From Candidatus Ancillula hodotermitis (GTDB taxonomy: Bacteria; Actinomycetota; Actinomycetes; Actinomycetales; Bifidobacteriaceae), in the NCBI GenBank assembly GCA_031262545.1, contig JAISHP010000091.1:1-43918 (forward strand): a stretch of DNA of 43,918 bases. Direction: 5' to 3'. Below the pieces are notes generated by a model, which saw only the letters and a program-made list of their open reading frames with translations, searched no databases and was not told the DNA's origin. Shown here piece after piece: positions 36,573 to 37,403 of the stretch. The translations under genes were made by a program, and so were the position numbers. Within the stretch, counting starts at the first letter, position 1. Every line of letters begins with the position of its first letter.

Positions 36573-37403
36573 ATGCTAAAAACACAAAATGAGGAATTGA
36601 ATAAAATTCTTGAGAATTCAAAAAAGATAGTATTTTTTGGAGGTGCTGGGGTTTCAACAGAAAGCGGAATTCCTGATTTTCGCTCACAAGATGGGCTATA
36701 CAATCAAGAGTATGACTATCCTCCTGAAACAATTCTTTCTTGGACTTTTTTTCGTGATAACCCAAAAGAATTTTATAGATTCTATCGTGACAAAATGTTG
36801 GGCATGGACCACCCCGTCAGCTCCGCTGCCACCCCTCCAGAGGAGGGGAACTTTGGTTATCAGCCGAATAATGCTCATAAATGGTTGGCAGAAAATAAGA
36901 TTCCGGTTTTGACACAAAATATAGATGGACTTCATTCAATAGCTTTAGGAGTTGATCCAAGTGAGAATCAATTGAAATATGATATTTGTGAGTTGCACGG
37001 ATCAATTTGGCGTAATCATTGTTCTAAATGTGGGAAGTTTTACGGATTGGAAAAGATTGAAAAATCGGTAAACGAAAAAGATGGAATTCCGAGATGTACT
37101 AATACGGGAATGTCGGGTTTGGAATGTAAAGGAATAATTAAACCTGATGTGGTTCTTTACGAAGAGGGGTTACCAAGCGATGTTTGGAGCAGAGCAGAGC
37201 AGTTAATTGCTGAAGCTGATACCATGATTGTTGGTGGAACTTCGCTAATCGTCTATCCTGCTGCAGGTTTAGTTCGTCTTTTCGCTAGTAAAGAAATTGG
37301 AGGGAAATCCAGAAAATTAGTCGTGATCAATCGTGATCAATCACCGGCTGATTCTTGGGCAGATTTATCCATTCATGGGTCTATTGGGGAAGTTTTAAAT
37401 TAA
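36573..37403 (+). CDS. NAD-dependent protein deacylase (sirtuin, Sir2 family)
   Basis: FFGGAGVSTESGIPDFR, LTQNIDGLH, ELHGSIWRNHCSKC, C-x2-C zinc motif; contains an in-frame GC-rich insertion. Confidence 0.92.
   Translation: MLKTQNEELNKILENSKKIVFFGGAGVSTESGIPDFRSQDGLYNQEYDYPPETILSWTFFRDNPKEFYRFYRDKMLGMDHPVSSAATPPEEGNFGYQPNNAHKWLAENKIPVLTQNIDGLHSIALGVDPSENQLKYDICELHGSIWRNHCSKCGKFYGLEKIEKSVNEKDGIPRCTNTGMSGLECKGIIKPDVVLYEEGLPSDVWSRAEQLIAEADTMIVGGTSLIVYPAAGLVRLFASKEIGGKSRKLVVINRDQSPADSWADLSIHGSIGEVLN
36807..36854. repeat. GC-rich palindromic unit inserted in frame in the sirtuin gene
   Basis: CCACCCCGTCAGCTCCGCTGCCACCCCTCCAGAGGAGGGGAACTTT: hairpins CAGC-TCC-GCTG and CCCCTCC-AGA-GGAGGGG, much more GC-rich than its surroundings. 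Confidence 0.7.

Follow-up and report, generated by a model that had tools for sequence, protein, structure and literature searches.

A dispersed two-hairpin palindromic unit lies in frame in a sirtuin gene of 'Candidatus Ancillula hodotermitis' and recurs within genes of other phyla

Rickettsia provides the best-known examples of palindromes that code for protein, and intragenic REPs have been listed for some other genomes. In fungal mitochondria, GC-rich double-hairpin elements occupy both coding and noncoding DNA of AT-rich genomes. Rickettsia palindromic elements (RPEs; Ogata, Claverie) are 105 to 146 bp long and have been described as Rickettsia specific, and a gmk gene carrying one is translated and active (reviewed in PMC2229807). 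Some GTAG and CGTC REPs are intragenic, and many of their host genes function in DNA repair. GTAG REPs end in GTAG and are associated with a Y1 (RAYT) transposase. No dedicated transposase accompanies CGTC REPs, in which a terminal CGTC adjoins a stem of 8 to 9 bp with A-T first pairs, a loop of 4 to 5 nucleotides (nt), and a CCA-like tail (Di Nocera et al. 2013, PMC3733652). Actinobacteria, Firmicutes, and Clostridia are unmentioned in that paper.

The window analyzed here is the whole 43,918-nt contig JAISHP010000091.1 of 'Candidatus Ancillula hodotermitis', a bacterium with a 1.51-Mb genome of 34.5% GC from a lineage of flagellate endosymbionts (PMC11707648). The source is a draft MAG (1.52 Mb in 163 contigs, 90% complete), the GC content of the window is 34.2%, and the host of the insertion is a probable termite-gut bacterium. 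A sequence-only reading had placed a GC-rich palindromic unit at 36807 to 36854, inserted in frame in an otherwise AT-rich sirtuin gene. Its sequence and its end were upheld, but the repeat begins at 36809, giving the 46-nt unit CCACCCCGTCAGCTCCGCTGCCACCCCTCCAGAGGAGGGGAACTTT. The segment is 67% GC, compared with 37% for the remaining gene and 34% for the window, and the open reading frame (ORF) is intact at 276 amino acids. Only 0.04% of the 48-nt windows across the whole stretch are as GC rich, and all of them overlap the sirtuin site. RNAfold returned exactly the two hairpins that had been proposed, with a folding energy of -16.6 kcal/mol, and five of the six frames of the unit are stop free. 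The window contains a single exact copy of the unit, and no chance match arose in shuffled windows. Rfam returned nothing above gathering for the sirtuin gene, its one chance match lying elsewhere in the gene. Coordinates are collected in Table 1.

Table 1. Features at the sirtuin locus, in positions of the window
Feature	Position	Strand	Basis
SIR2 family NAD-dependent deacylase (sirtuin) gene, host of the insertion	36573..37403	+	Pfam PF02146, 2.8e-36
Palindromic unit CCACCCC-[hairpin 1]-CACCCCTCC-AGA-GGAGGGGAACTTT, 46 nt	36809..36854	+	42 genome matches at E<=1e-4; aligned copies
Hairpin 1, CAGC-TCC-GCTG	36818..36828	+	RNAfold; sequence variable across the family, complementarity kept
Hairpin 2, CCCCTCC-AGA-GGAGGGG	36832..36848	+	RNAfold; best-conserved portion of the unit across copies
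Net coding insertion, 48 nt, residues H80 to G95, HPVSSAATPPEEGNFG	36810..36857	+	16-residue gap in 29 homologues; congener DNA

Related sirtuins lack the insert. About 18 extra residues had been proposed; the net insertion is 16, and these are missing from all 29 aligned homologues, which were drawn from the same genus, family, and order as the source and include four close relatives. Orthologues at 55 to 58% identity read FYRDKM-ILTTAQPN, FYRNKM-LFLDAKPN, and FYRSKM-LIFNAKPN, where the window protein reads FYRDKM-LGMD[16]YQPN, so that the alignment check suggested in the earlier reading came out as anticipated. Sirtuins from viral contigs (n = 22) likewise lack the insert. The 48-nt net gain exceeds the 46-nt repeat by 2 nt, the ends of the insertion are ambiguous by ~3 nt, and no clear target-site duplication was found when copies and congener DNA were aligned.

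The protein keeps GAGxS, QNIDGLH, the catalytic His, and two Cys pairs, as expected for a member of the SIR2 family. An AlphaFold model built from an alignment of 23 sequences had a mean pLDDT of 87.8 and a pTM of 0.86, and its best Foldseek matches were Sir2Tm structures 2h59 and 2h2i (TM score of 0.85 by target), with SIRT5 also matched. In this model, the SIR2 fold is retained despite the insert and the core is unaffected. The insert, which lies in the linker joining the small module to the Rossmann domain, between helices EFYRFYRDKM and PNNAHKWLA, was modeled with low confidence; residues 81 to 92 within it form the sole stretch of at least 3 residues with a pLDDT under 50. It is predicted to be a hydrophilic, Pro/Gly-rich, disordered loop.

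Nor is the unit unique in its genome, so that neither of the two findings named in the earlier reading as refuting was obtained. A search of the source genome with a dimer query gave 42 family matches at an E value of <=1e-4, whereas the same search gave none in 38 relatives (including three congeners), and a search of 297 other Actinomycetota at an E value of <=1e-5 also gave none. Most copies other than that in the sirtuin gene are intergenic, many as inverted pairs a few tens of bases apart, and the closest intergenic copies share 96% identity with the one in the sirtuin gene. Among the 41 distinct units recovered, the sirtuin copy is the only one in a recognizable conserved gene. Hairpin 1 varies in sequence yet stays complementary (a stem of at least 4 bp is retained in 60 of 77 distinct forms, compared with 8% in shuffles), which indicates that the palindrome is kept rather than its exact sequence. 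As a side observation, the SecD tail in the same genome (locus L060, 2058 to 2300) holds two diverged copies, read as TTPSAKADTPSKKGN and TTPSAKVDTPS, the second at a contig end; this is a weaker second case, since the low-complexity tail there varies in congeners too.

The family was also present in at least 13 other genomes, from Clostridia, Beta- and Gammaproteobacteria, Acidobacteria, Planctomycetes, and Fibrobacteres, with 1 to 61 matches per carrier genome. A scan of a species-genome collection for the hairpin 1-hairpin 2 pattern found 29 stretches in MAGs of Beta- and Gammaproteobacteria, Clostridiales, Oscillospiraceae, Planctomycetaceae, Fibrimonadales, and Acidobacteria. Several carrier MAGs bear isolate names of what we take to be a termite-gut series. 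The earlier suggestion that the unit resembles repeats scattered in intergenic DNA of diverse bacteria agrees with copies in the source genome and in other phyla, often intergenic. The unit was not found in plasmids or, as an exact pattern, in viral contigs, and text searches of the literature for the DNA motif or the peptide returned no paper describing the family. Tandem head-to-tail arrays were seen in a betaproteobacterial locus (L108, 660 to 786 and 2681 to 2758, 49-bp period) and in an acidobacterial one (L112, 1624 to 1880, period of ~57 bp).

Copies within genes were numerous in the termite-gut Clostridiales Family XIII MAG Hs463_bin27 (here G039), where 35 of 40 distinct units lie within ORFs of at least 150 amino acids. 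By frame, 21 of these are in sense and give TPPxEGN, 7 are antisense and give FPS..., and 7 are read otherwise. Pfam-supported hosts are MetH, an M50 (RseP-like) protease, Mfd, AddA, MutL, a Cu-type P-ATPase, RecJ, ComEC, an MFS transporter, FtsK, an Orn/Lys/Arg decarboxylase, and an ACPS-like protein; 11 relatives lack the M50 insertion. A 41-nt variant encodes DHPVSFAATPPxEGN in the frame that the window sirtuin uses, and a 43-nt variant encodes QPPRQAxPATPPxEGN, in which the 5' peptide is altered and the 3' frame retained. A short 37-nt variant lies antisense to genes (L126, L127, L128, L136, L143, and L247) and gives FPSxGGVxEGRGG or a near form. In a Rhodoferax MAG (G082), hosts are PurL (two units), MutL, MmeI, an M16 peptidase, UvrD, a YgiQ-like radical SAM protein, and GyrB. 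No unit splitting a long ORF out of frame was found in either MAG or in the source genome. Long ORFs at two GC-rich betaproteobacterial loci (L103 and L104) were excluded from the gene counts.

Several further observations concern these genes. The linker before MutL_C holds a unit in both the Clostridiales (L121) and the Rhodoferax (L098) MutL, apparently through independent insertions. An AddA-like protein (L120, ORF 3 to 1925) contains three copies, and in two of these another insert, HPVSFAATTWVPIRSTPPPEGN, divides the unit, resembling an insertion into the repeat itself. The Family XIII MAG also has CGTC-like REPs (GTCATTGCGGGC..GACCCGCAATCC; L116 to L143 and L241 to L247), 23 of 35 in ORFs of at least 150 amino acids and recurrently translated as WIAGQARND or VIASDAKQSND, so several palindrome families decorate proteins in that genome.

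Like RPEs, the unit is palindromic, dispersed intergenically, has stop-free frames, and occurs in an apparently host-restricted bacterium, in frame in conserved genes whose orthologues lack it. It differs in size and form (~46 nt with two hairpins, compared with 105 to 146 bp [PMC2229807]) and in spanning several phyla; by size it falls outside the RPE description. The parallel with Rickettsia drawn in the sequence-only reading extends to in-frame, stop-free insertion, which recurs in two other phyla, but not to element size. By analogy, the unit most likely works like RPEs. It also resembles CGTC and GTAG REPs, which are short palindromes with many inverted dimers, some of them intragenic and often in repair genes, and it shares with CGTC REPs the inverted pairs and, as judged from Y1 searches of four carrier genomes, the lack of a dedicated transposase. 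Its stems (3 to 6 and 7 bp) fall outside the CGTC REP definition, and CGTC is replaced in many copies; copies also lack the GTAG end of GTAG REPs. By description, the double-hairpin elements of fungal mitochondria are similarly GC rich, but they are organellar.

No Y1_Tnp/RAYT transposase (PF01797) was found in four multi-copy draft carrier genomes (the source genome, G000, and three others, G039, G085, and G087), and the copies can thus be explained without a resident RAYT. Mobilization of the unit by a RAYT thus found no support in these four genomes, where such a gene may nevertheless have been lost or overlooked. Other carrier genomes do have Y1 transposases, with no established link to the unit. 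Since the source genome is a 90% complete draft, a source of mobilization could have been missed there.

Together, these data indicate that the sirtuin segment is very probably a single copy of a dispersed, nonautonomous, two-hairpin palindromic element that inserted recently and is likely tolerated as a disordered loop. A hairpin DNA element would have moved into the sirtuin gene, which remained open with a stop-free unit and a gain of 48 nt, a multiple of three. The insert would then be transcribed and translated as a 16-residue loop. Because the loop is predicted to be disordered and the modeled enzyme core is unaffected, the insertion most likely has a near-neutral effect and is tolerated, and selection would remove insertions that break the frame.

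The location of the loop, in the linker of the small module and the Rossmann domain, and the recurrent frame in the Family XIII MAG (21 of 26 sense insertions) would suit a functional, selected addition to the sirtuin that arose from a repeat, for instance one that binds a substrate or partner. We consider this unlikely: the sirtuin copy is near the family consensus DNA and 96% identical to intergenic copies and is therefore young, unrelated enzymes carry the same peptide, congeners do without the insert, and disorder is predicted. Very unlikely is an artifact of assembly or binning in which a repeat was wrongly joined into the gene. The MAG is fragmented and many unit copies lie close to contig ends, but a false join would hardly leave the two halves of the gene intact and separated by exactly 48 in-frame nt, and independent MAGs repeat in-frame copies in conserved genes. 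It is extremely unlikely that the unit is skipped or removed during expression by translational bypassing or RNA processing, as with byp and mitochondrial double-hairpin elements, which a GC-rich double hairpin within a coding region does resemble. A skipped element need be neither stop free nor a multiple of three, whereas all intragenic copies in conserved genes are read through in frame and no frame-breaking copy was found.

The frame bias bears on how far the tolerated-insertion reading extends. In the Family XIII MAG, 21 of 26 sense insertions share one of three frames (binomial P of 9e-7 for p = 1/3), where all three sense frames are stop free in the consensus and secreted paralogues among the 26 are not independent. 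Among Pfam-supported sense hosts (with OKR_DC, FtsK, and ACPS counted), 8 of 11 use that frame (P of ~0.009). Bias of this kind was absent from the units of the Rhodoferax MAG. These counts are suggestive of selection acting on the peptide, or of copying between genes, in the Family XIII MAG; a peptide of no consequence at all would not be expected to show such a bias, which counts against a near-neutral reading. A bolder proposal, which we regard as possible but doubtful, is that these palindromes invade proteins and have a sequence adapted to coding DNA, colonizing genes rather than merely surviving there and moving between distant gut bacteria across phyla. On that proposal, colonization would follow from the length variants (41 and 43 nt in sense, 37 nt antisense), which keep a single hydrophilic reading, TPPxEGN or, on the other strand, FPSxGGVAEGRGG.

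One sequence family is thus open to being read as protein in Actinomycetota, Bacillota, and Pseudomonadota. Most of its units in one clostridial genome are within genes, and mostly in one frame; the spread across phyla and the gene-rich carrier genome are surprising. The unit is apparently a DNA element that has drawn little notice and that alters proteins in several phyla. Identical or related peptides form matched insertions in MutL, RecJ, RseP, PurL, UvrD, and the sirtuin, which makes protein creation by selfish palindromes, and their mobilization, testable outside Rickettsia in genes with laboratory orthologues.
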